From positions 1-59,595 of the IMG/VR virus record IMGVR_UViG_3300027791_003052: a DNA stretch of 59,595 nucleotides; one strand, written 5' to 3'. Shown piece by piece: positions 18,577 to 48,394 of this stretch. The notes under the pieces were generated by a model that was not told the origin of the DNA, made no database searches, and saw only the letters and a list, made by a program, of their open reading frames with translations. Source of the stretch: a virus. Each line of letters starts with the position of its first letter. Positions within the stretch are counted from its first letter, which is position 1. The translations under genes were made by a program, and so were the position numbers.

Positions 18577-18986
18577 ATCGAATCTGCTATTAACTTTTTA
18601 AATTTAGTTGTACTCCAACCATGTGAACGAGATATCCAATGAATTAATGTTCCTAATTCTTTTCCTGTATATGGTTTGGCAATATAATCATCACCTAAAA
18701 ATCTAACATCAGGGTTTATACTCTTAATTAAAAAAAGTAATTCCTTTTCTGTATTATAGGTTAGGAAAGTTGGTTTATTAAAAAAATATTCCAACATCTC
18801 TTTTCGTTCATCGATAGTTAGTACTGGTTTTAATTTTTCAGGTCTTTCTATTGTAGGATCGTTTTGTAATAAGATATATTGTTTCTGACACGTATCATTC
18901 ATCTCTTTAAATAATTTTACATATCCAGGATGTATAACATCAAAGTTACCAGCAACTATTCCTATTTCAACTTTTTCTATTTCCAT
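18573..18986 (-). CDS. Cytidylyltransferase-like nucleotidyltransferase (TagD/RfaE-C type)
   Basis: The 137-residue protein is a complete small nucleotidylyltransferase: GNFDVIHPGYVKLF (13-26) is the HxGH region, although the second His is replaced by Tyr22 (HPGY). ISRSHGWSTT (118-127) is the C-terminal nucleotide-binding motif. Relatives activate glycerol-3-phosphate or heptose-1-phosphate with CTP or ATP. The gene is wedged between the two GT7-LamG genes (4- and 10-base overlaps), so it probably makes an activated precursor for them or a phosphoglycerol-type decoration. The His-to-Tyr change leaves activity uncertain. Confidence 0.82.
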   Translation of the reverse strand: MEIEKVEIGIVAGNFDVIHPGYVKLFKEMNDTCQKQYILLQNDPTIERPEKLKPVLTIDERKEMLEYFFNKPTFLTYNTEKELLFLIKSINPDVRFLGDDYIAKPYTGKELGTLIHWISRSHGWSTTKFKKLIADSI

Positions 18987-20410
18987 AATTCTACTGATAT
19001 GAAGTGATAATTATTTACAAATGTATCTGATAATAATTCGAATCGAACATTATCAATTCCATCTCGTTTATAATCAGATTTACCTTTTAATACTTTATTA
19101 TAAAAATGTAATTGATTTTTTCGTGTTTCTGTCCAGGTCCATTTGTTTTCATAGAAACCATTTTCTTGATGATATAACAATTCAAAAGTAGAATCTCTCC
19201 TCCATGGAACTGGTATTTTCATAAATTTATCAGCTTGTTGAATTGGTACTTTGCCACAATCCATAACTTCAGCATTTCTACCCTTTCCACTTAAATCAGG
19301 AATACCGGAATAATTTGCAGTTTTCATATCATAACATACTTCAAGAGTATGTGGTGCAATATAATCTCCGTAAGATTCAGTAAGTCCCATTGATTTGTTT
19401 TTAGATATTTCTTTGATTTGGGATTCTTCTAATGAATGATTAAAAACTGCTAAATAATCAACCGTTCCAGCAAAAGCCTTTCTATTATTATACTCTAGTG
19501 AAGGAGAATTACCTAAATACATTTTCTTTTCAGAACCGTAATTTAATAGTTTACCAGTAAAATTAACGGAATCTACCAATTCACCATCTAAATAAAATTT
19601 AATAATATTATCATTTTGATTTACAGTAACACACAATGTAGTTTGCTTAGGAGGAGTTATATTTGATTTTAAACTTATACATTCTTTATCAACATTGAAC
19701 ACTTCAAATTTATATCTTTTGTATGAGTTATATGAAAAACTTAAATCAAATCCAGGAATACAGAAAATATTATATTCATCTGATGGGTATTTTGCATTAC
19801 ATTCAATTTCACTTGGTTCAAAGGAACAAAATATAGTATAGTTATTTAACCGAAACGGCTTTGGTATGGTAACTACACTTGTATGTCCATTAAATTTTAA
19901 TGCAGCTGAAGAATGTGAGTTTAATGGTAATTCTTTTGTGTTAAAATCAAAAAAGTTTTCCTTACATCTCCAAAGTAAATCATCATCTTCATATCCCCAT
20001 CCCCAATATTTGTTAGAATATCCATTTATATGATAATAATCATTTATTGGAAACATGGTAACACCACCAAAATATTCATCAAAAACAATACGTTTCTGCT
20101 TTTTGTGGTGATTTGATATAAAATTAGTCGCAAAATGAGTAGGCCTATCTACCAATGAATAATCAACATCTGAACTTGGTAACATATCTACATCGTGAAG
20201 TACGATATAATTACACCCAAGTTCTTTAGCCTTTCTTACACCAATATTTAATAGAGAACCCCGATTAAACGGATTGTTATCAGATTGTTCTACTATAATC
20301 AATTCATAATCTAATTTAGATTTTTTGAAATGATTTTTTATTGATGTTGTAAAATGATTTAGATGTGTTCTACGATTTCTATATGGTACAATGATACCAA
20401 GCTTATTCAT
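18977..20410 (-). CDS. Beta-4-galactosyltransferase-like (GT7) enzyme fused to a LamG domain (second copy)
   Basis: The 477-residue protein has the same architecture as the 17101 gene: VPYRNRRTHL (8-17), FNRG (48-51), DVD (73-75), YFGG (113-116) and WGWGYEDDD (136-144), which is even nearer to the animal GT7 consensus. A jelly-roll part follows from about 165 to 340 (FDLSFSYNSYKRY, KFYLDGELVDS, MYLGNSPS, AGTVDYLAVFN) and a shared tail with PVPWRRDSTFELLYHQE. The two copies are clearly paralogous yet have diverged a good deal, which argues for different acceptors rather than a recent duplication. It overlaps the TagD-like gene by 10 bases. Confidence 0.85.
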   Translation of the reverse strand: MNKLGIIVPYRNRRTHLNHFTTSIKNHFKKSKLDYELIIVEQSDNNPFNRGSLLNIGVRKAKELGCNYIVLHDVDMLPSSDVDYSLVDRPTHFATNFISNHHKKQKRIVFDEYFGGVTMFPINDYYHINGYSNKYWGWGYEDDDLLWRCKENFFDFNTKELPLNSHSSAALKFNGHTSVVTIPKPFRLNNYTIFCSFEPSEIECNAKYPSDEYNIFCIPGFDLSFSYNSYKRYKFEVFNVDKECISLKSNITPPKQTTLCVTVNQNDNIIKFYLDGELVDSVNFTGKLLNYGSEKKMYLGNSPSLEYNNRKAFAGTVDYLAVFNHSLEESQIKEISKNKSMGLTESYGDYIAPHTLEVCYDMKTANYSGIPDLSGKGRNAEVMDCGKVPIQQADKFMKIPVPWRRDSTFELLYHQENGFYENKWTWTETRKNQLHFYNKVLKGKSDYKRDGIDNVRFELLSDTFVNNYHFISVELWK

Positions 20411-20425
20411 CTGTGTTTATTTTGT

Positions 20426-20602
20426 TTATTTTTTTATAGTATTTTCATACCATTCAGATAAGTACCATTCAATTCGAGGTCCCCATGCTTCTTTATCGAT
20501 TTCTTCTACCCATAGAGTAAGTGCATCTAAGGAATTACCGATTTTTTCAAGTGCTTTTACTTTTCTTTCTTCTAAAATTTGTGAAGTTTCATCTTTTGCC
20601 AT
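20426..20602 (-). CDS. Small acidic hypothetical protein (58 aa)
   Basis: An ATG at 20602 opens 58 codons ending in TAA at 20426-20428. The product, beginning MAKDETSQILEERKVKALEK, is acidic and helical, with a Trp/Tyr-rich end (GPRIEWYLSEWYENT). It fills the gap between the GT7 gene at 20410 and the next glycosyltransferase gene, with a consensus 12-mer 38 bases upstream of its start, so it may be the first gene transcribed from that site. Family unknown. Confidence 0.6.
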   Translation of the reverse strand: MAKDETSQILEERKVKALEKIGNSLDALTLWVEEIDKEAWGPRIEWYLSEWYENTIKK

Positions 20603-20640
20603 AACGTAAATTAATTAATTGTTTTTGTTTTTGTTTGTTG

Positions 20641-20652
20641 TATATAAATATA
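20641..20652 (-). promoter_or_regulatory. Recurrent promoter-like 12-mer in the glycan cassette
   Basis: Exact TATATTTATATA in the coding direction, 38 bases before the 58-residue gene and directly after the stop of the GT92/GT2-like gene. It could start a transcript reading through the GT7, radical SAM and SDR genes to the left. Confidence 0.5.
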
Positions 20653-20660
20653 TAAAATTA

Positions 20661-21509
20661 CTAAATAGTAATAATTTTTCTTGTTAATCTATTCCACTTT
20701 AAGTAATCGAAATGAAAATTACTTTCCATTTTTTCAAACATAAATTCAGGATTGTTAATATCGATTTTCCAATCATTAATCTGAATAGCTTTATACATCT
20801 TTTTGTACTCTTCCCAAAAGGAATAGTTCTCTTCTGTTTCAGATACTTCTTTTAATCGTTCTAAAACGGTTGAATCCCACTTAAAGTGATGAACTTGTAC
20901 GAATCCCTCACCTCTACCAATTGGATACCTGAGAGGGTGTAATATTCCATCAGTTCCCCATACATGAGTTTCATCTATAATAGCATAATGTTGACCAGGT
21001 GTTACATCCACCGAACCTTTCATTATACAAACTTTATTTGGACAAGCTCCACTCATTGGATATCTAAAATACCCCGCAAGTGGAAACTTACTCCATATAT
21101 CAGTTTCTTTTGTTACCAAAGGAAACTCTCCATTCTCTCCTATCCTATCGAGAAAACCTCCTGTTATAAATTCCCATCCATTTTCCTCACAATCAGAAAT
21201 CATCTCTCTAATTGGTTTAGGGTAAATATGGAATTCATCATCATCCGAAACCACCCACCATTCTTGAGGCTTGGTTCGTTTAATTTCATTATATAATTGG
21301 GTTACTCTTTCCCAATTAAATTTTTCTTCTGTTACTACTTTATATGGGGTTATTCCGAGAGATTTTATTTCATCTAAAATTCCATCGTTTTCATGTTGTC
21401 TATAAACAACAACATAAATTTCATCAACAATGTTTTTGTAGTGTTCCAACATATGTGGAAGCATTGTGATGTTGTGACCAACAACTGTAACTAAATTTAT
21501 TTTTTGCAT
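20661..21509 (-). CDS. Glycosyltransferase, GT2/GT92-like
   Basis: The 282-residue protein opens with a GT-A type strand-helix (INLVTVVGHNITMLPHMLEH), has an EIYVVVYRQHENDG strand and the metal-binding acidic motif SDDDEFH at about 91-97, followed by the late His motif VQVHHFKWDS. The order resembles GT2 and DUF23/GT92 transferases that act on a distal sugar. No transmembrane segment is present. The start overlaps the methyltransferase gene by 13 bases. Donor and acceptor cannot be told from the sequence. Confidence 0.75.
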   Translation of the reverse strand: MQKINLVTVVGHNITMLPHMLEHYKNIVDEIYVVVYRQHENDGILDEIKSLGITPYKVVTEEKFNWERVTQLYNEIKRTKPQEWWVVSDDDEFHIYPKPIREMISDCEENGWEFITGGFLDRIGENGEFPLVTKETDIWSKFPLAGYFRYPMSGACPNKVCIMKGSVDVTPGQHYAIIDETHVWGTDGILHPLRYPIGRGEGFVQVHHFKWDSTVLERLKEVSETEENYSFWEEYKKMYKAIQINDWKIDINNPEFMFEKMESNFHFDYLKWNRLTRKIITI

Positions 21510-22276
21510 CTTTGTAGAATCGTTAATCCAGTAGAAGATGGTCTACTTCTAAATATACCATTATTAAAAAAGTTGAAAATTTCCCACTCTTTATTTTCTT
21601 TTAATTCGGTTATAAGCTTAGAAGGCCCATCTGAATACTCTTGGTGAAATTCATCAAGAATATCATCCGAAGTAATGTGTTCCCTTTCATATGATGCATC
21701 AGTATCGTGAATTGTTATTATACCATGTGGTGAAAGTAATTTTGAATATAATTCGAAATCATTTTTCACGTCCTCGTATGTATGACCCGCATCAATATGT
21801 AAAAAATCTATTTTAATATCTTCTTTTATAAAAAAGTTATAATATGCATTTTCGGTTGTATCTAATATTACTCTACATGGAAAAGTTTTTCTAAAATATG
21901 AATTCTTATCAACCCAATCAGTATATCCACCAACTCCATTTGAAGCATCTACTAATATAGTTGTACCACTATCACCCCATTCCATTGCTTTGTTACCATC
22001 GAATATTTCTTGTTCGTGTAGGTCAATTCTTGCTTGAGATATGATTCTTGGAATAAACCCACCACCACTACCTAAACATACACAAGTTTTTGCTCTCATA
22101 TATTGTATGATAGTATAAATTAACATACCATCTCCTAAATGTTTATCAGTAGCTCCATGAGTCCATCGGTACTTAACAGGAGTTAGTTCATCATATATTT
22201 TACCATTAACATCAACAGATTCTTTTCTATTGTTGGTAAAGTATTCTTTTATAAGATTGAAATTGATGATGCTCAT
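21497..22276 (-). CDS. Class I SAM-dependent methyltransferase
   Basis: The 259-residue protein has the class I fold signals: CVCLGSGGGFIPRI (about 65-78) as the SAM-binding glycine loop, then an acidic strand end TTILVDAS, and IKIDFLHIDAGHTYEDVKND with SPHGIITIHDTD, the pattern of the Methyltransf_24 and cephalosporin-hydroxylase-like group that methylates small molecules or sugars. It overlaps the GT2/GT92-like gene by 13 bases, so O-methylation of the glycan is a reasonable inference. Its start follows a 200-base gene-free leader containing two motif copies. Confidence 0.78.
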   Translation of the reverse strand: MSIINFNLIKEYFTNNRKESVDVNGKIYDELTPVKYRWTHGATDKHLGDGMLIYTIIQYMRAKTCVCLGSGGGFIPRIISQARIDLHEQEIFDGNKAMEWGDSGTTILVDASNGVGGYTDWVDKNSYFRKTFPCRVILDTTENAYYNFFIKEDIKIDFLHIDAGHTYEDVKNDFELYSKLLSPHGIITIHDTDASYEREHITSDDILDEFHQEYSDGPSKLITELKENKEWEIFNFFNNGIFRSRPSSTGLTILQRCKK

Positions 22277-23684: not shown

Positions 23685-26600
23685 TTAACCACAGTAGAGG
23701 TAACCATATACCCCTTCAGAGAGTCCATTAGAATCAAATGTAACATCTTCCATTGCTTTAGCAACAGTATAAGAACATTGTGATTGTCTTTCTTCGTACT
23801 GAGGATTATTATCACCATCAAAGGAAGTAACTACCCACTCAGATGGTTGTTTCATTAAATATCCTGCCGTATCAGAAGAACATAATAAATCACCTCTTGA
23901 AACATCTCCACCTTGGTTACATACTTTAAATCCTGGTAAGATGGAATTTGAACCCGATTCATAACTATCCCCTATGGATGCAACTTTCCATATTGTTTTT
24001 GTATCTCTTTCATTTTCAGGCAACACATCACCTAATGAGTCATATTGAAGAGAACCACTTCTTAGTTCTTTCCATAAGATACCAACAATCTCAGTATCTT
24101 TAGCCGTAGTTGATTTTATTATTTGATTATTGGAATCCAACTTAACCAAATCACCAGTATCTATGCTTACATTATTTTGTTTTACATATTGGTGACCCGC
24201 AGTAAATTGTGATTTAACTAATGCAATATTATGGGAAAGTATTCCATCTGATATATAATTATGTACTATACTTAAATGATAGTTCCATACATCAACTTCT
24301 TCTTCAAATCTTTCAATACTTTTAATTGTATCAAGTACCAATTCACCATCAATTGCAACATATACTTCATCACCTTCAAGTAACCAACCAACAGGTAATT
24401 CTTTATTTTTAAAATCAGGATGATATAGTGCATGAGAGTTAGAACATCTAAGTTCCTTGCCTGATTCTGTTTTTAAAATACACCAACCTTTATTTTTACC
24501 TATAACTATTTCATCAATAGATGACCATCCGAATTCTTTGGTTTCAAAATTAAATACTTTTATAAGGTCATGTTGTGTTGTATCTTCTATGTTTACCTCA
24601 CCTCTTTTTGTAATAATTTTTGTACCAGGTAAAACACAATTATCTTCTGCAAAAGTTACAATATCAGCCTGATCAGATTGTAAAGTTCCGATTGAAGTAC
24701 CATAACCATCGTAAGCAGTAAACTTATCTGAAAACCGAAGACCACCAATTCTGGCGTTACTCTTTATCCTCAAACCATCAGTTGAATCAATTTCTATCAA
24801 ATCCCCAAATGGTTTTGTTCCTATTTTAGCACTCGTACCAAATGATGCAATACCATCTGTGTCTATATTAAAATCTGGTGCGGATATAAATCCACTTGCT
24901 CCAATTAACATACCAGAAGTTGTATTAACACCACTACTACCACCTGTTCCACCAGACCTAATACCAGTTGATGAAAGAGTCCATCCACCAATAGTTCCTG
25001 AGGTTGCAGTTACTAAACCTGCTGAAGATACTGAGAATTTTTGATTGGATGTTGTTGTACCTCCAAATGCAATTGAACCATCGGCTAAGCTAATTTGAGA
25101 ACCTGCTGAAGCAGTAAGAGTTACACTACGTATAGTTCCTGTCTTGATTACACTTCCATCGATTTCTGTTACGTTTGCATTTACATCAGCTCCAGATATA
25201 CCTTGTGTTAATGTGGATGATCCATCGGTTACAGAGGTACCTGAGAATGTTACCAATCCACTAAATCCTATTGCTTGTGTTACAGTACCAAATGATACAG
25301 TACTCGCGTATCCAGGTCTAGAAGCATCCTCTGTTGCGGTGTAGTTTGAATACCAATATTTGTTAGAGTTACCAGATGCATAAGTTGGTGTTGATGTACT
25401 CCAATTTGTTGTAAGTGATGTGAATGTATCTGGAAATGTTAATCTACTTGCAGTAGGTAAAGAAGGTGCGGTTGCAGATACATTTGCAAAGTTTACTCTA
25501 CCTGTTACTGTTCTCAATCCATTATCACCAGGATCACCAGGATCACCATCACCACCTTCTACTGATTTACTAAAACTTTGTATTTTAGGAATGGTTACTT
25601 CATTTTCGATATTAACACTAAATACAATATTAGCAGTATTAGCATCACAAGCACTTGCAACTGCAAATACCGCTGGATTACCAGTTACAGTTTGTGCACC
25701 TACTGTTATATTAGTATCTGATGTAACTGTAACTTTAAATTCATTTGTAGAAGGTGTACCTGTTACACTATTAAGTTCGGTAGCACCTTTATAAACAACA
25801 ATTGATGTACCTGAACCTGCATAAGTTACTGTACCTGTGTTTGTAGTTGGAAGTGTATGTGATTCATTTGTTAAAATTACAGTATATGAATCTGCACCAG
25901 CTGCACCAGCACCACCATCAGTTCCTTGTTTTAATCCATAAATATTTACTTCATCAAATGCAGCATAAGTACCACTACCACCTTCTCTTACTTCTACTCT
26001 CCAAAGGTCAGTTGTATTTGCTGCTGGTTCCTGTGCATCTGGTATTGTATATGTATTTGTTGTACTCCATGTTTGTCTTTCTGTACCATCTTGTAAAAAT
26101 CTATATTGAGGTGAACTAAAGTTTTGATGAGTACCAGTTAATGTAATTTCTACTGCAGTTTTTGCATTTGCTCCATTATATAAAACAGCATATTGAGATG
26201 CGGTTAATTTTATAGATTTAGCATTAGAACCCGCGGCTCCGGGTTGTCCATCTTCTGCAAAGTTAGCAAATAACCCAGGTGCTGAGAAATTACCAAATGT
26301 TCCATTTGTTGAAGTTCTTTGACTAACCCATACATATTTGTTAGAAGATGTAGGTGTAGCTGGAGTACTAGACCATCCCGTTGGGGATGAACCGGTTGGT
26401 GTAGTTGGAGCTGATGCTGAATTAGTAAGTTTGTATATATATTGAATACCATCACCTTCTTCACCAGCTTTTGATTTAGTTATTGTTTGGGTTTTAGTGA
26501 ATGGGGTGAATGTAGTTCCGTTTGCAGTTTTACCACTAATAGCGTATGATATGGTTACCGAATCTGTACCATCTACCATTCCTCCATGTTGTGGAACAAC

Positions 26601-29600
26601 GGCAAAGTTGGTTGAATCTGATATAGGGTCACCATCACCAATTGTAATTGTTGAGGCTGGGGATTGTGTGGCTGCAACTGTCCAATGACCAGCAGTTGTA
26701 CCACTTCCATCATAATCCAATGCAGTTGCTCCCTCGAATACACTTATTACAGTTCCACTACCACCATAACTTGTAGAATCTACTGAACCATCATTATTTG
26801 CCGGAACTATATGAGCTTCATTAGATAATAGTGCAGTTACATTTCCACTACCTTCATCTAATTGGGCTAATGTTACAGTATCTGCAATACTACCATCATT
26901 TGAATGAGCCGTATATGTTACAACCATTCCGTCTACAAAGTTTGCACTTGTAACAGTTGCAGAACCACCACTTGAATTTTCTGTTTTAGAAGTTAACGTT
27001 CCAGCTGAAGTACTAAATGCACCTGCTTGAGTTAAGTTTTGTCCGTTTGCAGTTATTACAATTGATGTTGGACTTAAAACACCAGCTCTATTTTTTCTGA
27101 ATATTGGTGATGCTGAAGTTAAGGTTACCGTTTTAGCATTTGTACCAACTACTCCCTCTTTTGCTTTTGAAAAACTTTGAGTTGTTGTACGTGTAAATGC
27201 TTCTCCTCCAAGTCTTTTTCCTGATATGGTATAAGTTAAAACAACAGAATCAACTGACATTGCAGATGGTGCTGATATGGTTGCTGAGGTTGTTCCATTA
27301 CCACTAACTGTTCCCTCTGTTAATCCTCCTACATCTTCTACACTAATACTAAACTCTCCGTTTGTAACTGTTCCTGTTGTAAAAGTAAGAATATCACCTC
27401 CTTCATAAACTTCTAATGTAGTTCCACCACCAGTAAAAGATGATACACTCCCATCTGCGAGTGCAGGAAATGTATGAGATGAGTTAGAGTTAGTTATTTG
27501 TATTGCATCCTTTCCTGCTCTACCCTTAGTAATACTTTGTTGGAACGAACCACTAAATAATTCTCCATTTAGTTTTCTACCGATATATGGATATGAAACA
27601 TTAACCACTTCAGTATCTCTATCCATTGCCGTATGTTCTGCAACCACTGCGTGTTTCCCACCATCTGTTATAGCACCTACTGATAATTTACCACTTGGTG
27701 TTACAACAGTTGTAGTTAATTTCCAATGTCCTTGATATGGACTTGTTGGATTTAGAGGATTGTATTCGAGTAGAGTTGCTCCTTCAAATATACTTAAGTG
27801 TGTACCACTATTAGAAAAATCTAAAATAGAACCAGTTGCATCTGCTGGAAACATATGAGCTTGATTTGTATTTAAAATAGTCAAACCATCCGTTCCAGTA
27901 TCTACTCTAATAATTGAAACTGAATCTTGAAACACAACTCCATCCTCAGAACCAGATATAGTAACTACCGTAGAAGTTTCTGAACCAGAAATTTCCTCTT
28001 TTGCAATTGTTCTTGTTAAACCAGATCCTCCCAATGTAATTCCGTTTGATGCACTAAAATCGAGTGATCCTGAGATGTTATCTTTAGTTGCAGTAAGTGT
28101 TATTGAAGATGGAGTAATACTACCATCTTTTGCTTTTATAAATACTTGTCCTGATGTAGCCAATGAAACTGTTTTTGAACTAATCCCATCTGCTCCATCG
28201 GAAATAATATACCAAGTTTCATTAATGGTATTTGTTTGTTTAGTTCCTGGGTCTGTAAATACTGCAGTAACATTTATATCTTTTGTTGCATAACCACTAC
28301 CAAATGGTATATTGGTTTCATCACCATCAGCAGCTGTCATTACTATATGACCTGTTCCACTTTGTCCAGAAGCAGGACTTGCAATTGTCCATTCATCTAA
28401 AGGGTCATTAAAACTAGGTGTAATTGTTGTAGATAATCTATATTCACTACCTGTTGTATCAAAAAATACGGCAGTTGCTTTTAAGAATGATGGGTCATAT
28501 GATGAACTTCCTACTAACCTTCTTGAAACTTTACCTTTTACTGCTACAAACGAACCACCACCAATACCATCGGTTACATCTACCAATGCTATGGTATCAA
28601 GTAATGTTCCATCATCTTTTTTTAATGAATATGTTGCTTGTCCATTTATTGCACTACTATCAAGAACTGGATTATAAGTTACTCCATTTCCACCATCTGT
28701 TGTTCCTAATAATGAGGTAGTAAGAAGAGTACTTCCACTATAAATTTGAGCATCTCCTTGAGAAGAACCACTTATATCAAATGAACCAGTTCCATCAATA
28801 CCTTGTACTTGTAATTCTAACGTATTTGCAATCCCATGACGTGGGTCAATAAATTTAAATCTACCTGCATTCTTTATTTGAGTACCTCTTAATGGTCTAA
28901 TAAAAAATGTTGGTTTTACATCTTCACCAGGTTTCACAAATATAATACTTTCTGTATCTGCAAATAATTCTGTTGTAGAATCAGTAGCTTCAGAAACACC
29001 AACCCTAAATGAAAGTGGTGTAGTTATATAATTAGCAGGAGATGTAAATGTTGTAGTTTTACTATTAGCACTATCTCCATCAGTAAACGATGTTTCATCA
29101 GTAAAATGAGATCCTCCACCTGTAAATTTGAATTGTGCATCTCTAAAATTAAGAGAAGTTGCAGTTAGAGTTACAGAAGATGGTACAGGGTTTGTTCCAT
29201 CTGAATCATACATAATAGAATTATCAGTAAATGATAAACCTACTTTTTTTGATGGTGAACCCGCTGCAGCAACTCCAACTATAAAATTAATTGTTTTACC
29301 TGTAAGTGCAGTTCCTTCTGAATTTGTTAAAGATACTGTGATAACTCCAGTTACTGCCGTTCCATTTGTTGGTGTATTTGGAGTGATTGTTCCATTATTA
29401 TTATTTGTTCCATTTGTTACACCAGTAATTTTAAATTTATTAGCAGTTACCGTTCCTGTTGTATGTGTAAAATCAGTAGAACCTTCGTTTACACTAACAC
29501 TTATATTTGATGGTGAAGTAAACGTAAGAAAGTCATATTCTGTACTTACAGTTTGAGTTTGTGGATTTGCTATTATTGTTGTAATGGGTTTTGCTTCTCT

Positions 29601-32600
29601 AATACGAGATATACTTGCAACAATATTTTTAGTACCAGAAGTTCCTTCACCATCTGTAAAGTTTACTGGAATAGTAATAGTTTCTGTATCAGATAACATA
29701 TCATCTGCAGTATCACTAAATGTAATAGTATTTGTTGATACCGTTCCACTCAATCCACCACTATATACCACAGTTCCAATTGAAGTAAATCTATTAGTTC
29801 CACCTTCTGTTGCACTTACTTCAATAGTTTTAGGTGATTCAGAACCACTTCCTACTGAATTTGCATTTATTCCTTGTGATTGTAAGTTTACACTTACCTC
29901 TACATTAGGAACTCCTTTTTTTGATTTAGTATAAGATACTATTTTTTTGAATGATTGTTCAGTTACATTATCACCTGATAGATATTCTATGTTTAATAAT
30001 AGTGAACCACTATCATGTTGATTTGGAAATGCAGATATTCCATACTCAGAGGTTGTTGGTGATGTATCTACTGCTGTTACATTTGTTTCTACTATTGAAG
30101 TAATATCAAATGTGTTCTTATTTCTCCCTCCTCCTACATCATCATGTTCTATTTGAGTTCCACCAATAAACATTTGAACATTCCCTTTACTTGAATTAAA
30201 CCCACCAGGTACATCTCCTGTTGATTTTGCTGGAAATGAAGTTGATTCATTTGAAAGAACAAGTGAAATACCATCAAAGTTTATAACCGGTGATATTGTT
30301 ATTTCATCAGAAAATGGTAACTCAAATTGATCAGAACCAGTAAATGAATAAGTCGTTTCTGGAAATGATGAATCAGCAAATGATGAAGAATATGCTAAAG
30401 CTGATATTGTGTATGTATCAATACCTGTTGCATTATCCGTTACAGGTCCAACCAATGGTGGAGCTCCACTTCCTGAATTTACTTCAATTGGAGTTGATAA
30501 TGAAAATAAGTTTTTTCTCTGTGCTCTTACCGTTATACTTTGTCCACTTGGTTTTGGTGAAAGAGTTGTTGGTTCATATATAAATTGATTTGCATTTGAT
30601 GTTACAATAAGTTGTGGTGCATTATCACCATCTTCTAATCTATACACCGTTTCAAATTCTTCTTGTTCTTCTATTGAAGCCGTATAAATAATCGAACCAA
30701 CTGTTATAGAATCATCACTACCACTAAAATCCGCCAATCTTATAATTGCTCCGGCTGATGTTACATTGGTAAGAGTTCCAGGATATGTTCCACTATATGA
30801 GGCAGGAATTATATATGCTCCATTTACATCAAATGCAGAAGATGCATATGTAACCGAACCTGTTAAATTGTTTGTTCGTGTTTTGAATTGTATTTGTTGG
30901 AATGGTGGGTTTCCTATTGAACCACTTGAAAATCTAAATGCATTTCTATCCGATTCAAATGTCATTAACTTATCACTTGATGGGAAATCATTACCACCTG
31001 TAAATGCTTTTGTTGTAGTTACATCAACAGGTATATAATTGTTATTTATATCATAAAACTCAAATTTGAAATCGAATGTTTCTATTGCAAGTTTTCTTGG
31101 TATATCTTGTATTAATGTAAACTCATCTGGTGAGAATGAGGTATCTTGTGCGTTTTTAAGAGATACGTTAGATATGTACCAATCACCCCCATCGATATCG
31201 AATTTTAAGTATGTATCTTTAGCTGTTGTTGTTGCTAATATATTTTGTGATACATTTTGTCTTGTTTTATATTTCGATAAATCTTTTTTACGTCTCGATG
31301 AATTTCGTCCAAATGGAGTTTTACGTGATGGTGGGGTATTAGAGCCATCTATTGTTAAAAATTCCTGTTCAAAATTAGAACCACTAAAATATGCTCTAAT
31401 TGATTGAGAAGTTCCCTTAGAACCACTTAGTAGAGTTTTAAAATTTATTGTATATTCAACACCACTTGTTATTTCAAAACTACCACTTGTAGATAATATT
31501 TGAGTTCCACCTGCCGCTTCATCATAATTTGTTTTTGCAGATGCGTTTAATATATCTGTGTTAATTGTAACGGGATGATCATCTGAGGAAGTTATCCAAT
31601 ACGTTGATAGGTTTGTTTCATCAAATGTACCATATGATAATTCAGTATCAGCAGTGGTTGTTATATCTTTTAATAGTTCGGAAGATTCTAATTTAGATTC
31701 TTGTACAAATTGAAAATCTCCAATTGTGTTTCTTGATTTTCTAAATACCTTAACTCTGGCAACATCCCCAACAAAGGTCTTTAGATTATTAAAGTTTATT
31801 TTAGCGAAAGAACCAGTTAATGCAGAATCTGTTACTGTTTGTCCTTCTACGAATTCAAAGGTTGTTGTGTATGGAGTTGGAAAGAAATCACTAACCGAAC
31901 CATCACTTGAAGTAAATGGAGTATCAACCATCACTTCTTTATTACTCAATACTTCAATTACATTTGAAGAGTAATTTAAGGATGGAACTGAAATTGTATT
32001 ATCATCTACTGAAGATGTCCAATTACTAATACCATCCTCTATTTTTAATTTATAATTTACACCAGCCCTCCATTTAGATAAATCAGTTCCACTTGGTGGA
32101 TTTTGTGAGATACCTGATAAACTACCTGTTTGTGTTACATTTGGTATATTTTTTGTAAATATTGGTTTTACTAACTCACTTACATTAACAATGGGTTTTT
32201 TGTAAAATCTAACAATATCTTCATTTGATACATTTTTATTTATCTGTATGTTCTTTTCCCACTTAACATTATAAGCACCAACCCATTCGGTTGGGATATC
32301 ATCAATTTGATTATTCTCACCAATAACAGTTTTTAATTCCCCAAGAATGGTAATTTTACCTATACCAATCGGAGTATCATCGTAAACGTGTATTGCAATT
32401 AATTTAGAATTACCTTCATAATATTCTGGAGTACCATCTCCTGGTTCAAAATATACTGGGTTTCCTTCAACATCTAAAATTTCTATTTTTATTTCAGTAG
32501 ATTCCTTTAAATGTTCAGAACCCTCAATTAAGAATCCATTTTTACCACCTGTAAGTGTTTCACTTAAATCAGAAATTCTAAAATATTCGGAGTTAGGTTG

Positions 32601-32669
32601 ATCATCATTTTCAAATACTTGAAAATTAGATAAATTTAAAAAGGGAGAATATGATTTTATTATAGCCAT
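23685..32669 (-). CDS. Giant repetitive tail-fibre protein with a Hint domain
   Basis: The 2994-residue protein is rich in Ser, Thr, Gly and Asn and poor in Cys outside the end, as in phage fibres. Two repeat types alternate. Type A has K-x-V-x-L...P-x-S-I-x-L-T-A (near residues 1090, 1440, 1830, 2150). Type B has (S/N)-x-S/A-H-x-x-P-A...G-x-V/T...V/I-F-E-G (near 805, 1593, 1725, 1948, 2270). A short collagen-like GDGDPGDPGDNG lies near 2350. The Hint domain is at 2678-2814, and about 180 more residues follow with a Cys/Gly-rich C-terminus. The N-terminal part probably attaches to the tail; the far end probably binds the host. The promoter-like motif is 16 bases upstream. It is the largest gene in the window and the likely glycosylation target. 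Confidence 0.85.
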   Translation of the reverse strand: MAIIKSYSPFLNLSNFQVFENDDQPNSEYFRISDLSETLTGGKNGFLIEGSEHLKESTEIKIEILDVEGNPVYFEPGDGTPEYYEGNSKLIAIHVYDDTPIGIGKITILGELKTVIGENNQIDDIPTEWVGAYNVKWEKNIQINKNVSNEDIVRFYKKPIVNVSELVKPIFTKNIPNVTQTGSLSGISQNPPSGTDLSKWRAGVNYKLKIEDGISNWTSSVDDNTISVPSLNYSSNVIEVLSNKEVMVDTPFTSSDGSVSDFFPTPYTTTFEFVEGQTVTDSALTGSFAKINFNNLKTFVGDVARVKVFRKSRNTIGDFQFVQESKLESSELLKDITTTADTELSYGTFDETNLSTYWITSSDDHPVTINTDILNASAKTNYDEAAGGTQILSTSGSFEITSGVEYTINFKTLLSGSKGTSQSIRAYFSGSNFEQEFLTIDGSNTPPSRKTPFGRNSSRRKKDLSKYKTRQNVSQNILATTTAKDTYLKFDIDGGDWYISNVSLKNAQDTSFSPDEFTLIQDIPRKLAIETFDFKFEFYDINNNYIPVDVTTTKAFTGGNDFPSSDKLMTFESDRNAFRFSSGSIGNPPFQQIQFKTRTNNLTGSVTYASSAFDVNGAYIIPASYSGTYPGTLTNVTSAGAIIRLADFSGSDDSITVGSIIYTASIEEQEEFETVYRLEDGDNAPQLIVTSNANQFIYEPTTLSPKPSGQSITVRAQRKNLFSLSTPIEVNSGSGAPPLVGPVTDNATGIDTYTISALAYSSSFADSSFPETTYSFTGSDQFELPFSDEITISPVINFDGISLVLSNESTSFPAKSTGDVPGGFNSSKGNVQMFIGGTQIEHDDVGGGRNKNTFDITSIVETNVTAVDTSPTTSEYGISAFPNQHDSGSLLLNIEYLSGDNVTEQSFKKIVSYTKSKKGVPNVEVSVNLQSQGINANSVGSGSESPKTIEVSATEGGTNRFTSIGTVVYSGGLSGTVSTNTITFSDTADDMLSDTETITIPVNFTDGEGTSGTKNIVASISRIREAKPITTIIANPQTQTVSTEYDFLTFTSPSNISVSVNEGSTDFTHTTGTVTANKFKITGVTNGTNNNNGTITPNTPTNGTAVTGVITVSLTNSEGTALTGKTINFIVGVAAAGSPSKKVGLSFTDNSIMYDSDGTNPVPSSVTLTATSLNFRDAQFKFTGGGSHFTDETSFTDGDSANSKTTTFTSPANYITTPLSFRVGVSEATDSTTELFADTESIIFVKPGEDVKPTFFIRPLRGTQIKNAGRFKFIDPRHGIANTLELQVQGIDGTGSFDISGSSQGDAQIYSGSTLLTTSLLGTTDGGNGVTYNPVLDSSAINGQATYSLKKDDGTLLDTIALVDVTDGIGGGSFVAVKGKVSRRLVGSSSYDPSFLKATAVFFDTTGSEYRLSTTITPSFNDPLDEWTIASPASGQSGTGHIVMTAADGDETNIPFGSGYATKDINVTAVFTDPGTKQTNTINETWYIISDGADGISSKTVSLATSGQVFIKAKDGSITPSSITLTATKDNISGSLDFSASNGITLGGSGLTRTIAKEEISGSETSTVVTISGSEDGVVFQDSVSIIRVDTGTDGLTILNTNQAHMFPADATGSILDFSNSGTHLSIFEGATLLEYNPLNPTSPYQGHWKLTTTVVTPSGKLSVGAITDGGKHAVVAEHTAMDRDTEVVNVSYPYIGRKLNGELFSGSFQQSITKGRAGKDAIQITNSNSSHTFPALADGSVSSFTGGGTTLEVYEGGDILTFTTGTVTNGEFSISVEDVGGLTEGTVSGNGTTSATISAPSAMSVDSVVLTYTISGKRLGGEAFTRTTTQSFSKAKEGVVGTNAKTVTLTSASPIFRKNRAGVLSPTSIVITANGQNLTQAGAFSTSAGTLTSKTENSSGGSATVTSANFVDGMVVTYTAHSNDGSIADTVTLAQLDEGSGNVTALLSNEAHIVPANNDGSVDSTSYGGSGTVISVFEGATALDYDGSGTTAGHWTVAATQSPASTITIGDGDPISDSTNFAVVPQHGGMVDGTDSVTISYAISGKTANGTTFTPFTKTQTITKSKAGEEGDGIQYIYKLTNSASAPTTPTGSSPTGWSSTPATPTSSNKYVWVSQRTSTNGTFGNFSAPGLFANFAEDGQPGAAGSNAKSIKLTASQYAVLYNGANAKTAVEITLTGTHQNFSSPQYRFLQDGTERQTWSTTNTYTIPDAQEPAANTTDLWRVEVREGGSGTYAAFDEVNIYGLKQGTDGGAGAAGADSYTVILTNESHTLPTTNTGTVTYAGSGTSIVVYKGATELNSVTGTPSTNEFKVTVTSDTNITVGAQTVTGNPAVFAVASACDANTANIVFSVNIENEVTIPKIQSFSKSVEGGDGDPGDPGDNGLRTVTGRVNFANVSATAPSLPTASRLTFPDTFTSLTTNWSTSTPTYASGNSNKYWYSNYTATEDASRPGYASTVSFGTVTQAIGFSGLVTFSGTSVTDGSSTLTQGISGADVNANVTEIDGSVIKTGTIRSVTLTASAGSQISLADGSIAFGGTTTSNQKFSVSSAGLVTATSGTIGGWTLSSTGIRSGGTGGSSGVNTTSGMLIGASGFISAPDFNIDTDGIASFGTSAKIGTKPFGDLIEIDSTDGLRIKSNARIGGLRFSDKFTAYDGYGTSIGTLQSDQADIVTFAEDNCVLPGTKIITKRGEVNIEDTTQHDLIKVFNFETKEFGWSSIDEIVIGKNKGWCILKTESGKELRCSNSHALYHPDFKNKELPVGWLLEGDEVYVAIDGELVLDTIKSIERFEEEVDVWNYHLSIVHNYISDGILSHNIALVKSQFTAGHQYVKQNNVSIDTGDLVKLDSNNQIIKSTTAKDTEIVGILWKELRSGSLQYDSLGDVLPENERDTKTIWKVASIGDSYESGSNSILPGFKVCNQGGDVSRGDLLCSSDTAGYLMKQPSEWVVTSFDGDNNPQYEERQSQCSYTVAKAMEDVTFDSNGLSEGVYGYLYCG
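24228..24638 (-). other. Hint (intein-like) domain inside the tail-fibre protein
   Basis: Residues 2678-2814 (137 residues) are a complete Hint domain. It begins CVLPGTKIIT with Cys as residue 1, has the block-B SNSHAL (His about 69) and ends VHNYISDGILSHN (blocks F and G). It has mini-intein size with no endonuclease insert. The residue after the final Asn is Ile (HN-Ile-Ala), not Cys, Ser or Thr, so normal protein splicing is not expected. Bacterial intein-like domains with this layout cleave at their ends. Confidence 0.85.
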
Positions 32670-43090: not shown

Positions 43091-46000
43091 TCAATCTACT
43101 TCCAATATTGGTTGACCACTTCCTCTTCCACCAGGATTTACTCTTAATGTATTTGGATTCGTTGTGAACGTTTGAACAGGCGAACCACCATCTAAAGTAG
43201 TTAATGATGTTTGTTTTGAACCATTAAAGAAAGAATTTTCCAGTCCTGTTGTTAAATCTGCCACATTTCTGTAATGATATGGTACATACCCATCCAATGG
43301 AACTGCACTTATCGTATTACCAACAACAAGAGATCCACTTTGTGAAAATTCTCTAAAGTTTAGTTTTTTACGATATAATGTTTGTGTTACGAACTCTCTA
43401 CCTTTAGATTCATCATTTGGATCTATGTTTTGTGGAATATCAACGTTATAACTCTCTGTTATAACATCTACTCTTTTTCTTTCTTTTACAAAATTATTAT
43501 CTTTATCTAATCTTGTTATTATCGTATGTCCGTTTTGTGCATATATTGGAAATCCAGCAACTGTTAGTGAATCTACATCCATACCAATTTGATTGAATAC
43601 AGTTGAATCAAATTCTCCAGATTGAGAAGTTTCAAATTGTGCATTAACAGTAATTGAAATTCCACCCATATCCGAACCACTATTTACAGTTATAAATCCA
43701 TATTGGCTTATATCACTACTTGCTACTATTGTACTCGTATATGAATCTTTAGTACCTCCTAATGATGGTGCTATTGACTCTGATACTGTTCCTTCAAAAT
43801 TATTTTTACCACCACTTAGAACCGTAATATCTGATGTAATTAATGTACCTGATATTCCTTCATTTGTAGATTTTACATTAATATCATTTACATCGATTGT
43901 AGATGTATGATTATGTAATGATGCACCAGTAGGTTTTCTATCCACTTTACTTCTTTCAAGTATATGTGGTTCGATTAATATTCCACTTGCCACCTTTGCT
44001 CTTGCTGGTACTAGTGATTCTAATACATCAAATAATGATTTATCTATATATCTAACTAATTGTATATATTCTGATAAGTTTAATTGATATCTTTCAAAAT
44101 AATATTTTCTTAATTTATTTAATTCTGAATATTCTGTGTTATAATCATCAGATGGGTCACCAATATAATCGTCTATTTCAAAACCACCTAATGATTTCAT
44201 AATATCCATATTAATCTCTTTTATAGGAGAGAAAAATAATCCCAATTTATCCGAATCAAGTGGAGCTTGGTCAAATGATTTTTTAGTAGCCCTACTTTTA
44301 TATGATAAATCTAATATTTTAGTTTGAGTTTCAAATCTAACTTTATTTCCACTACTAAATCCACTTGATGGTACTTCTGCCGTTACATCTCTATCATATG
44401 AAACATATTGATGAGGATATTGTGTTATTGAAGTAAAATTAGATGCAGTTGCAAATGAACTATATGTTGTATCTATTGAAACATTCTTAATAGATGTATC
44501 TCCTACCGAACTTCTATCTTTTGGATATTCAAAATCTAATCTGAATATTAAATCTTCAGTAGATGATTTGATGTGATTTCCATTAATAGCTTCTGGTAAT
44601 AATGTATGATTAGAAATAACAGATTCACTCAAAGGAGCAGACCATAATCTAAATTCATCAATAGAACCAGTTAACGTAGAACCACCAATTGTTAATTCAT
44701 GTCCAGTTTCCCATCCATTATTACTACTTGGAACTTTCATAGTACTTGATGTACTATTTCTAATTCTTCCTTGCAATCCTTCTTTTAAATAAACATCAAT
44801 GGTATCTTCACCACTTCCCGTTATTCTGTTAATGGCAATTTGTGTATATTCATCATTAAAGAACGCAACTTGTTCAGTTGAAGAGGATATATAAGTACTA
44901 CCACTTAATATGTTTAATGTTAATTTAGCAAGTGAACCAGATTCAGGATAATCTACATCCAAACTCCATCCAGCCGTACTTATTAATCTTTGGTCTTTTT
45001 TCTGATCTGTATTTAATCTAAATTCTACTGAATCAGGATACTTTTCATTATGAGATTTCCATGGTACTATTATAGAATCACTTCCACTAATATTAATTGC
45101 AGATGTTCTATCCTCGTATGTGAATTGTGTAGTTCTATTTCCAGGTTGTGGTCCACCAAACTCCATTATAGTTAATAATGATTGTGGAATACCATAACAA
45201 CTTAGTGCTGCTGATAACGCCCTTCGTGTACCTTTGTGTTTATGTAAATATGGTAAGTTATTAAGTAATCTTCTCCAAACTTCATTCTGTCTATCTTTAC
45301 CACTCATCTCAGAGGCAATACTACCATCTGAATTTTTACCAAATGCATACTCCCACAAGAATTGTGATTGTACACCCATATCAGCATCCCAACCAAGAGA
45401 TTCTAACATATGATAAATCAATTTATCATTAATTCCGTTTTCGAATTTATGTTCTAATTTTTTAGTTTGTTTGATACCATTAATATGTGCCCACAATATA
45501 TCAAAGTGTTGACCAATCATATCAAAGAATAAAGTAAATGATTGACCTTCTTCATCATTTTGTATATGAGCTGGTAAATTATTAACTAATCTTGATGAAT
45601 TATCTCCATCATGTATTCTTGAAGTTGTTTTTATACTATTATACCAACTGGTTACGGATGAATCATTCGATTCAGATAATGCACTTCCACCAGCTCCAGG
45701 ATATGTCAATCCACTTACTGATGAACTTGTATATAAGAACTTTTCAAATGCATCAAATCCTTTTTTAGAATCATTTATTTTATCAAGAGTTCGTTTAGCT
45801 TCATTTTTAATAGCAACAGAACTTGTAGCAGAACCAGTAATAGTACTCGATACTCCACTTCCTAAATCAATTGAACTACCAGATACTAATCCATTGTATC
45901 TGTTTTCATATGATTGTATTAACTTAACTTTATAATAAAAGTTCTCAACTCGTTCTTCCGCGGAAGAGTATTTTACAAATGAACCCCAATCGATTTCTGA

Positions 46001-48394
46001 AGTACTACTTTCTTCAAAATAATTACCAGTACCATTTTCTACTAAAGTAAGAGATGATGTTACAAAGTTAATATTTAAATTATCTAAAGAATATTCTGAT
46101 GAAGAAATAAATTGATTTACAACTTCATTTGAAGTAGTTGATCCACTTGCAATTAAATCATCTAAAATTTGATAACCAATTACATCGTTTGTTTCTAATG
46201 CGAAATTAGGAGTAAGTGGTGTACAATGTGTAGATATATCATCAACAATAGTTATTTGATCTATTATAGGGATTGCCTGTAATTTTGATAACCAAATAGT
46301 ATCGTTAGTATTTACATTTTTAGGAAGTGGTTCATATAGTTTTAATACTAATGTTTTTTCTTCGTTTATTTTTACTTGTTGATTGGTTTGGTTGTTATAC
46401 TGATACGTTGATAATGTTTCCGTATCAATACCCCATGTAGCTACTAATTTATTATTACCATCCCCTAAATGTAAATAATGAGTTAAGAATGGAGAAATGG
46501 AATCTGTAAAAACATCTGTATTAAATCCTTTAGCAAATGCATTTCTTAAATCAGAAATTACATCCGCTCTTCTTAGATTTAAATCACCTACATCAAATGA
46601 AATACTTATACGTTCTTCCTTACCATCTGTTTTTGAATCTCCCTCGGTATTGGTAGGAATTAATAATAAATTAAACTGCAATATACCATTAACTTCTAAT
46701 GGACGTATTTTTGCAAGATTTAATTTATTTAAAATATCACCAACATTAAAAGATGCAACTCCAATTGCAGGAAATTGTCCTAATGATGAAACAGAAGTTT
46801 TCTTTCCAGCATATATGTTAATAAAGTTGGTATTAATAGATTGCCATGAAATTTCAAATGGAACGTTTGTTCCTTTAAAATCAGCTCCTACAATGTTTTG
46901 TGGATAATTTATAGTAGTAATATCAGGACCAGGTAAATAGGCTTTACTTTCAACTGTTACTGTTATTTTTTCTAAGGTACTACTACCACCCCTATCAGAT
47001 ATTGCCTGTAAATGAACGGTGTAGTTACCTACTCCATTATAGAAATCCGATGTTTTTAATATTAAACTACCATTTGTATCAATTTGTCTTTGTGTATTAC
47101 CAAGAGTGTAAATTACCTTATCGGCATTAACACTTCTATATGGTATTTTTATAGAATTTGAATCTGATATGTTAAGTTTAACACGAGTAATGTCTGCCTT
47201 TATACTTGGTGCATCTGGGGCTTCTTCAACTGCAACCTTAATGGCATTAACTACTATATTGTATTGTCCTCCAGATAGTGGTAAAGTAAATTCCTTTGTT
47301 TTAGTAGTTTTATTACTTCGATTATCTGGTGTATTATGTGTAAATGTAGTGGTGTGGGTAAAATCACTAATACCTACACTTATAAATTTTATAAAAGAGT
47401 TTCCTTTATTATTATTTGGTGTATATTTTAAGTTAATATCACTTTCATCAATAACAAATCCACTCTCACCCCATGAAGTTTGATATTGTATGATATCATT
47501 AGCAGATACATAACCTTCTATATTAACTTTTATTTCAGTTCCACTAACGGGTTCATCATCATCAATAATAACATCATTTAAATCAAACGCTAAAGTAAGT
47601 TGTTGGGTTTTAGTTATAGTATCTGTTATTTTATTTATTTGATCTAATACGGGGATTGATACTCCGTTTTTCTCTAATCTAAATTCATAATAATCATACT
47701 CAACAAAACCAACAATGGGTTGTTGTCTTTTTACATTAGGCTCAACTCCCCTTGAATACCCCAAGTAGTATGAGTCAACACCCTGTCCTGTATTAAACGA
47801 ATCGTTGGAATTAAAGTTAATTCCCATTGAATCTTCACCAAAACCTCGGTAAGTATCACTATCATTTCTGATAGGAATTCTATTGTCTGGTTCTATAAAA
47901 TCATCATCAAATTGTTCAATTAATGGTTTTATTGTTTTAGTGAATTTCTTCTTAGTGGAATATAATTTATATTCATCATTAGAAGTAAATCCACTTTTTA
48001 TTATCTTAAAATATTTAGGTGTTAATAATTCCTTTCCAGTATAATTGAATATCTTAGCAGGAGTTTTTAAAGTATCCTTACCATTTATAAGAATACTACC
48101 ACCTTTGTTTGATGTAATATTAACTGATAAATTTCTACTTTCCGATAATATCTTTGTTTCTTTTTTTATATATGTACAACTTCCATTACTAACAGTTGCA
48201 TTTGGATTATAGTTTGTAGCTGATCTATCCATACAACCACTAATAACTGACACAGTCGTTTTTGTAGAACCACCAGTTCCGCCTCCCCCTCCTCCGCCAG
48301 TATTTCTGACAAGTTCATATGAGTCACCATAGTTTCCATCTTCACCACTACCGCCACCTTCTATTTGGTCATAAAAATTTGCTCTAACTGCCAT
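43091..48394 (-). CDS. Large tail/baseplate protein with a GCMD repeat and a LamG domain
   Basis: The 1767-residue protein has a glycine-rich lead (residues 34-42), one Cys-bounded GCMDRSATNYNPNATVSNG repeat at 53-75, a long series of beta-type modules, a YLHKHKGTRRALSAALSCYG helix region near 1050 and a LamG jelly roll around 1130-1290 (GWSLDVDYPESGS, IGGSTLTGSIDEFRLW). Its size and place next to wedge genes fit a tail or baseplate wedge-associated fibre protein. The start is exactly one base after a motif copy, which leaves no room for a normal leader. Confidence 0.78.
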   Translation of the reverse strand: MAVRANFYDQIEGGGSGEDGNYGDSYELVRNTGGGGGGGTGGSTKTTVSVISGCMDRSATNYNPNATVSNGSCTYIKKETKILSESRNLSVNITSNKGGSILINGKDTLKTPAKIFNYTGKELLTPKYFKIIKSGFTSNDEYKLYSTKKKFTKTIKPLIEQFDDDFIEPDNRIPIRNDSDTYRGFGEDSMGINFNSNDSFNTGQGVDSYYLGYSRGVEPNVKRQQPIVGFVEYDYYEFRLEKNGVSIPVLDQINKITDTITKTQQLTLAFDLNDVIIDDDEPVSGTEIKVNIEGYVSANDIIQYQTSWGESGFVIDESDINLKYTPNNNKGNSFIKFISVGISDFTHTTTFTHNTPDNRSNKTTKTKEFTLPLSGGQYNIVVNAIKVAVEEAPDAPSIKADITRVKLNISDSNSIKIPYRSVNADKVIYTLGNTQRQIDTNGSLILKTSDFYNGVGNYTVHLQAISDRGGSSTLEKITVTVESKAYLPGPDITTINYPQNIVGADFKGTNVPFEISWQSINTNFINIYAGKKTSVSSLGQFPAIGVASFNVGDILNKLNLAKIRPLEVNGILQFNLLLIPTNTEGDSKTDGKEERISISFDVGDLNLRRADVISDLRNAFAKGFNTDVFTDSISPFLTHYLHLGDGNNKLVATWGIDTETLSTYQYNNQTNQQVKINEEKTLVLKLYEPLPKNVNTNDTIWLSKLQAIPIIDQITIVDDISTHCTPLTPNFALETNDVIGYQILDDLIASGSTTSNEVVNQFISSSEYSLDNLNINFVTSSLTLVENGTGNYFEESSTSEIDWGSFVKYSSAEERVENFYYKVKLIQSYENRYNGLVSGSSIDLGSGVSSTITGSATSSVAIKNEAKRTLDKINDSKKGFDAFEKFLYTSSSVSGLTYPGAGGSALSESNDSSVTSWYNSIKTTSRIHDGDNSSRLVNNLPAHIQNDEEGQSFTLFFDMIGQHFDILWAHINGIKQTKKLEHKFENGINDKLIYHMLESLGWDADMGVQSQFLWEYAFGKNSDGSIASEMSGKDRQNEVWRRLLNNLPYLHKHKGTRRALSAALSCYGIPQSLLTIMEFGGPQPGNRTTQFTYEDRTSAINISGSDSIIVPWKSHNEKYPDSVEFRLNTDQKKDQRLISTAGWSLDVDYPESGSLAKLTLNILSGSTYISSSTEQVAFFNDEYTQIAINRITGSGEDTIDVYLKEGLQGRIRNSTSSTMKVPSSNNGWETGHELTIGGSTLTGSIDEFRLWSAPLSESVISNHTLLPEAINGNHIKSSTEDLIFRLDFEYPKDRSSVGDTSIKNVSIDTTYSSFATASNFTSITQYPHQYVSYDRDVTAEVPSSGFSSGNKVRFETQTKILDLSYKSRATKKSFDQAPLDSDKLGLFFSPIKEINMDIMKSLGGFEIDDYIGDPSDDYNTEYSELNKLRKYYFERYQLNLSEYIQLVRYIDKSLFDVLESLVPARAKVASGILIEPHILERSKVDRKPTGASLHNHTSTIDVNDINVKSTNEGISGTLITSDITVLSGGKNNFEGTVSESIAPSLGGTKDSYTSTIVASSDISQYGFITVNSGSDMGGISITVNAQFETSQSGEFDSTVFNQIGMDVDSLTVAGFPIYAQNGHTIITRLDKDNNFVKERKRVDVITESYNVDIPQNIDPNDESKGREFVTQTLYRKKLNFREFSQSGSLVVGNTISAVPLDGYVPYHYRNVADLTTGLENSFFNGSKQTSLTTLDGGSPVQTFTTNPNTLRVNPGGRGSGQPILEVD

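Follow-up and report, generated by a model that had tools for sequence, protein, structure and literature searches.

Inteins carry Cys, Ser or Thr at the first position after the domain (+1) and occupy conserved insertion sites. Phage fibres also possess Peptidase S74 and G2 domains, which are intramolecular chaperones that release themselves. A-type bacterial intein-like (BIL) domains are reportedly described in Amitai 2003 and Dassa 2004. BIL domains lack a +1 nucleophile and yield mainly cleaved products (PMC7664689). Type A BILs keep the terminal His-Asn, and weak splicing is possible when the freed amino group attacks the N-terminal thioester; cleavage dominates (PMC4031507). BILs sit in non-conserved regions of proteins (PMC5874633). 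Hedgehog proteins use the first acyl shift only, and BILs are likewise able to cleave at their N-terminal end (PMC7664689, PMC5874633). According to these reviews, the natural role of BIL domains is largely open.

Here we analyze a Hint domain encoded in a stretch of viral DNA of 59,595 nucleotides (IMG/VR record IMGVR_UViG_3300027791_003052, positions 1 to 59,595), called the window below. Judged by sequence, the domain appears to be of a known kind, an A-type-BIL-like Hint; what appears new is its pairing with a conserved C-terminal domain (CTD) in phage virion-type proteins. In the literature searched, mostly outside subscription journals, we found no description of a Hint domain in a phage tail fibre. 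We propose, with a probability of roughly one half, that this is an active A-type BIL-like domain that mainly cleaves itself, most likely after Asn2814, and so frees the CTD.

The Hint domain and its host protein

The following features are relevant here.

23685–32669, minus strand: very long fibre-like virion protein, an ORF of 2994 aa, whose CTD matches a Vibrio phage tail fibre
23688–24206, minus strand: conserved CTD (FTAGHQY...VYGYLYCG), defined by alignments; occurs without a Hint in many viral contigs
24207–24227, minus strand: linker between Hint and CTD, 7 residues (IALVKSQ), of low model confidence and presumably flexible; 7–17 residues in relatives
24225–24227, minus strand: +1 residue Ile2815, a non-nucleophile; varies among relatives
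24228–24638, minus strand: Hint domain, residues 2678–2814, 137 aa (TIGR01445, PF14890, AlphaFold model with Foldseek)
24228–24233, minus strand: block G His2813-Asn2814, for Asn cyclisation and C-terminal cleavage; invariant in 11 of 11 versions
24261–24263, minus strand: block F His2803; invariant in 11 of 11
24432–24443, minus strand: block B Ser-Asn-Ser-His (SxxH replacing TxxH); first Ser and His invariant in 11 of 11
24636–24638, minus strand: Cys2678, Hint residue 1, nucleophile of the N-S acyl shift; invariant in 11 of 11
24639–24713, minus strand: variable linker upstream of the Hint, YDGYGTSIGTLQSDQADIVTFAEDN, with Asn at −1; the upstream 450 bases are poorly conserved between fibres

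The original prediction placed a 137-residue Hint domain at 24228–24638, running from Cys2678 to Asn2814; its coordinates, residue numbers and frame are correct, with Cys first and Ser-His-Asn last. Its identity as a Hint domain also holds, given a confident structural model, solved folds of the Hint type as best matches, and a score above cut-off for NCBIfam TIGR01445 (intein_Nterm; E = 2.9e-6 and 28.2 bits on the isolated domain, against a cut-off of 24.5), which was exceeded again in a scan of the whole contig. Pfam PF14890 (Intein_splicing) matches the window domain with E = 1.5e-6, yet under its gathering score, and matches all 11 versions of the domain described below. Pfam PT-HINT had no match against the contig. 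The window holds a single such Hint domain. The anticipated motifs are present, namely block A CVLPGTKI, block B RCSNSH, block F VWNYHLSIVHNY and block G GILSHN, with Ser in block B where TxxH usually has Thr. The residue after Asn2814 is indeed Ile rather than Cys, Ser or Thr, and 180 residues extend from Ile2815 to the stop.

AlphaFold modeled residues 2672–2994, comprising Hint and CTD, from 27 sequences with a mean pLDDT of 83.7. Both domains are largely confident, and the linker just after Asn2814 (model residues 143–150) is of low confidence; we count this arrangement, two well-folded domains joined by such a linker, in favor of the self-cleavage proposal. The top solved folds returned by Foldseek were Tetrahymena BUBL1 BIL2 and the C. 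thermocellum BIL (TM up to 0.86), with many inteins and hedgehog lower in the ranking. BILs precede inteins by a narrow margin only, and BIL and intein chains score alike in sequence; the ranking concerns the Hint, whose matches fill the list for the Hint-plus-CTD model. A tail protein of Colwellia phage 9A, a Foldseek match considered as a Hint carrier, has no Hint by HMM. AlphaFold on the CTD with 8 sequences gave a pLDDT of 42 and no usable model.

The original prediction called the host protein a tail fibre. The 2994-aa protein matches no fibre family of PHROG or Pfam, so that this name draws on other evidence: its CTD has a match (E = 5e-4) in a Vibrio phage 1.204.O protein annotated as tail fibre, it contains collagen-like stretches, and baseplate wedge genes lie on the same contig. 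On this basis, the protein is probably a tail fibre. Downstream of it, after an unmatched 397-aa ORF, the region 18977–22276 (minus strand) encodes a methyltransferase, a glycosyltransferase of family 2 and a galactosyltransferase-like protein that bears a laminin-G domain; ORFs of like size also come after a Hint-less fibre in contig L001. Elsewhere in the window, a 1767-aa ORF at 43091–48394 (minus strand) has no PHROG match.

Relatives of the Hint domain

Relatives were sought in viral contigs with the whole protein, alignments and DNA patterns. This yielded 11 distinct versions of the fibre Hint on 14 viral contigs, window included. Cys1, the block-B SxxH, the block-F His and the terminal His-Asn are invariant in all of them, and the invariance of Cys1 and His-Asn suggests that both ends of the Hint are kept active. 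The residues that flank the domain in each version are as follows.

Window: −1 N, +1 I
L035: −1 N, +1 I
L036 (identical Hint in L037): −1 F, +1 M
L038: −1 S, +1 M
L039: −1 S, +1 T
L040: −1 S, +1 V
L041 (identical Hint in L042 and L043): −1 S, +1 T
L051: −1 A, +1 A
L053: −1 A, +1 A
L054: −1 S, +1 G
L067: −1 T, +1 A

Six different residues occupy +1 across the 11 versions, and all but the Thr of L039 and L041 are non-nucleophilic. A variable +1, which the original prediction had stated as a general trait of BILs, is borne out inside this family, and it suggests selection for something other than ligation by the usual route. Eight further Hints retrieved by the block F/G pattern lie in phage enzyme-type genes (L070, L071, L072, L073, L075, L077, L079 and L080), with +1 residues C, C, C, C, C, T, C and S, respectively. 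These enzyme inteins serve as an internal control; the contrast is descriptive, the fibre members being mutually related and not independent cases. The Hint alignment found no relative in 84,980 bacterial and archaeal genomes. Named phage records contained no close one, the best match being an unannotated 484-kb phage record (25% identity, E = 7e-4); the other matches with named features among them were enzyme inteins.

The C-terminal domain and its contexts

The same CTD lies 7–17 residues past the end of the Hint in all 11 versions, even those found solely through the Hint pattern. It begins with approximately (F)T.GH.Y or variants, and complete copies end in VYGYLYCG or IYGYLYCG. The sequence ahead of the Hint belongs to two unrelated contexts, a long fibre shaft in seven versions and a different, short protein in the other four (L051, L053, L054 and L067). 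The short protein has no assigned function, is ∼496 aa where complete, has ∼150 residues ahead of the Hint where its start is seen, and has an N-terminal part unrelated to the fibre shaft. A CTD conserved on unrelated shafts beside a cutting domain would, by analogy, resemble a self-releasing assembly domain. When 16 CTDs were compared with Pfam, none matched Peptidase S74 or Peptidase_G2 at E ≤ 1. The CTD was accordingly rejected as an S74/G2 chaperone, the only matches being weak ones to Phage_cement_2 (E = 0.0099) and E217_Gp32 (0.03).

At least 15 other contigs, as well as Vibrio phage 1.204.O, carry the CTD but no Hint beside it. In the Hint-less L004 and L006, the CTD region is 86% and 78% identical, respectively, over the aligned stretch, and their linkers fail to align residue by residue with those of Hint-bearing fibres. 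The near-identity of the CTD in these two shows that close phages can do with an attached CTD, whose release is non-essential in them. On a CTD tree the Hint is restricted to one clade (100/100), where it is interleaved with the Hint-less L004, L006 and L063. The starred branches of this tree force at least two gains or losses of the Hint, and four are needed as drawn.

Comparison with described Hint systems

The window domain fits the published sequence hallmarks of A-type BILs: a Hint fold with an N-terminal Cys, a C-terminal His-Asn, a +1 that is usually non-nucleophilic, and a variable insertion region. It shares with A-type BILs, of which the C. thermocellum BIL (PDB 2lwy) is a solved example, the fold, Cys1, the terminal His-Asn, a length of ∼137 aa and the absence of an endonuclease, and its family shares with them a mostly non-nucleophilic, variable +1 and insertion in variable parts of proteins. 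What sets the family apart from them is its phage fibre-like virion hosts, its constant and conserved CTD neighbor, and two members with Thr at +1. BUBL1 BIL2 of Tetrahymena (PDB 6y75, 6tmm) is among the best matches in both sequence and fold, but it is embedded in a ciliate precursor protein, and no common flanking domains were seen.

Mini-inteins such as Spl DnaX (7cfv) and gp41-1 (6qaz) have the same fold and blocks A, B, F and G. Unlike them, the fibre Hint family has neither a consistent Cys, Ser or Thr at +1 nor a conserved insertion site. A class 1 intein has one of these three residues at +1, whereas the window has Ile2815, and only L039 and L041, with Thr, conform; such an intein also lies at a conserved site in a conserved protein, whereas insertion here is in a variable linker 7–17 residues before the CTD. 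As with S74 and G2 chaperone domains, a conserved C-terminal domain is found on very different shafts, and we propose its release after assembly. In contrast to them, the CTD has no sequence match to either, and a separate Hint would make the proposed cut; the likeness is functional and hypothetical. A hedgehog Hog domain was rejected: the sterol-recognition region is absent, and no domain follows the Hint except the CTD, itself present in Hint-less fibres.

Predicted self-cleavage and its alternatives

A catalytically intact Hint, inserted in the variable linker between fibre shaft and conserved CTD, would act as follows. After folding, Cys2678 would form the N-terminal thioester and Asn2814 would cyclise. 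Because +1 is Ile, the usual trans-esterification should be impossible, leaving self-cleavage as the main outcome; with the catalytic residues kept and +1 non-nucleophilic, cleavage is therefore expected as the main reaction (PMC4031507, PMC7664689). The main cut would most probably fall between Asn2814 and Ile2815, and release of the last 180 residues, that is, of the CTD, is the most likely outcome predicted. It would be accompanied by a degree of N-terminal cleavage at Cys2678 and perhaps by a small amount of spliced product. The CTD would act in fibre folding or trimerisation and afterwards be dispensable as a covalent part, a role that would resemble that of chaperone domains which release themselves from other phage fibres, without sequence homology to them. 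That cleavage occurs, at which end and for what purpose, we infer; what is seen directly is the Hint with a conserved active site and a variable +1, its fixed neighbor, and the Hint-less relatives. Counted against release of the CTD are the near-identical CTD of the Hint-less L004 and L006, which would also fit a self-splicing Hint, the Thr in two versions, a CTD without a known chaperone family, and the dN/dS of 0.76 between the window and L035.

The original prediction held that Ile should block splicing and that the domain would cleave in the manner of BILs. Its second half stands, as this is a Hint of the BIL kind with its catalytic residues kept, for which cleavage is expected; "block" is too strong, since type A BILs are capable of splicing without a +1 nucleophile (PMC4031507) and L039 and L041 have Thr, with which they could splice normally. 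The foremost alternative, which we consider unlikely, builds on these same two points: the Hint would splice itself out, either by the aminolysis of A-type BILs or, in versions with Thr at +1, by ordinary splicing, and the mature fibre would then equal its Hint-less relatives. Hint-less fibres with nearly the same CTD do exist. Yet 9 of 11 versions lack a nucleophile at +1, cleavage predominates in published BILs, the sequence on either side of the insertion point is not conserved, and testing for heptads across the junction revealed no restored coiled coil (offset 0 was best in 2 of 7).

It is more improbable still that water or a small nucleophile attacks the Cys2678 thioester, by N-terminal cleavage or hedgehog-like transfer, so that Hint and CTD are released together and the shaft end is left or modified. 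The invariant Cys1 would be explained, and there are precedents in hedgehog, which relies on the first acyl shift alone, and in BILs that cleave N-terminally (PMC7664689, PMC5874633). However, His-Asn is equally invariant though unneeded for N-terminal cleavage alone, the −1 residue varies among the 11 versions, and there is no region like that for sterol recognition. The original prediction also put forward that the fibre end might be joined to another molecule via a thioester; nothing in the sequence, such as a region of this kind, points to this, and the idea is unsupported.

Selection on the Hint bears on the remaining alternative. Its dN/dS is ∼0.12–0.45 in most pairs, which indicates purifying selection, and the window–L035 pair is the one at 0.76. 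A decaying or inert mini-intein, a passenger without a role in fibre maturation, would suit that pair and the patchy presence among close relatives, with at least two changes forced on the CTD tree, but it is equally improbable given a complete active site in 11 of 11 versions, dN/dS well below 1 in most pairs, constant pairing with one CTD, and a +1 that varies across lineages in the pattern of BILs rather than of a single recent loss.

A possible maturation device

If self-cleavage is the main reaction, phages would have an additional route for releasing a fibre domain. The Hint and the CTD may then form a two-part, portable device for fibre maturation, in which a cutting Hint and a conserved C-terminal assembly domain that it cuts off are paired on unrelated virion-type proteins, as a Hint-based counterpart of self-releasing fibre chaperone domains. 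We offer this reading tentatively, with the odds somewhat against it; if true, it would provide a natural role in a virus for BIL-like domains. Such a role is directly testable here because the Hint has a constant partner, a virion-type host protein, close relatives that carry or lack it, and a product that could be measured as fragments in virions. If splicing should be true instead, the family would provide a test, in a natural setting, of splicing without a +1 nucleophile.

Possible exchange of the Hint, and other Hint-bearing proteins

The 450 bases upstream of the Hint are 46–70% identical in all fibre pairs but one, versus at least 71% in the Hint, and are near background in most pairs, this flank being unrelated between most fibres. 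Between several clades (L036/L038/L039/L040/L041), the Hint clearly exceeds the neighboring CTD in identity at third codon positions, with 0.85 in the Hint versus 0.58 in the CTD (p = 1.3e-7) for L040 and L041. These patterns suggest either recombinational exchange of the Hint on its own or constraint on its codons.

Two further kinds of Hint came to light. A second, unrelated and very long fibre-like protein, in L078 (1–8388, plus strand) and L076, carries a Hint that is apparently Ser-first (QSVEANTEI) and ends in SHN with Ala next; the fibre C-terminal end downstream of it is a different one (LPGGLIIQWG...). Here too, a fibre-like protein contains a Hint whose +1 residue is non-nucleophilic. 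In L074 (minus strand, at the end of an ORF), the C-terminal half of a Hint ends in HNYVANGILSHN with Lys at +1, and just 7 residues remain before the stop.
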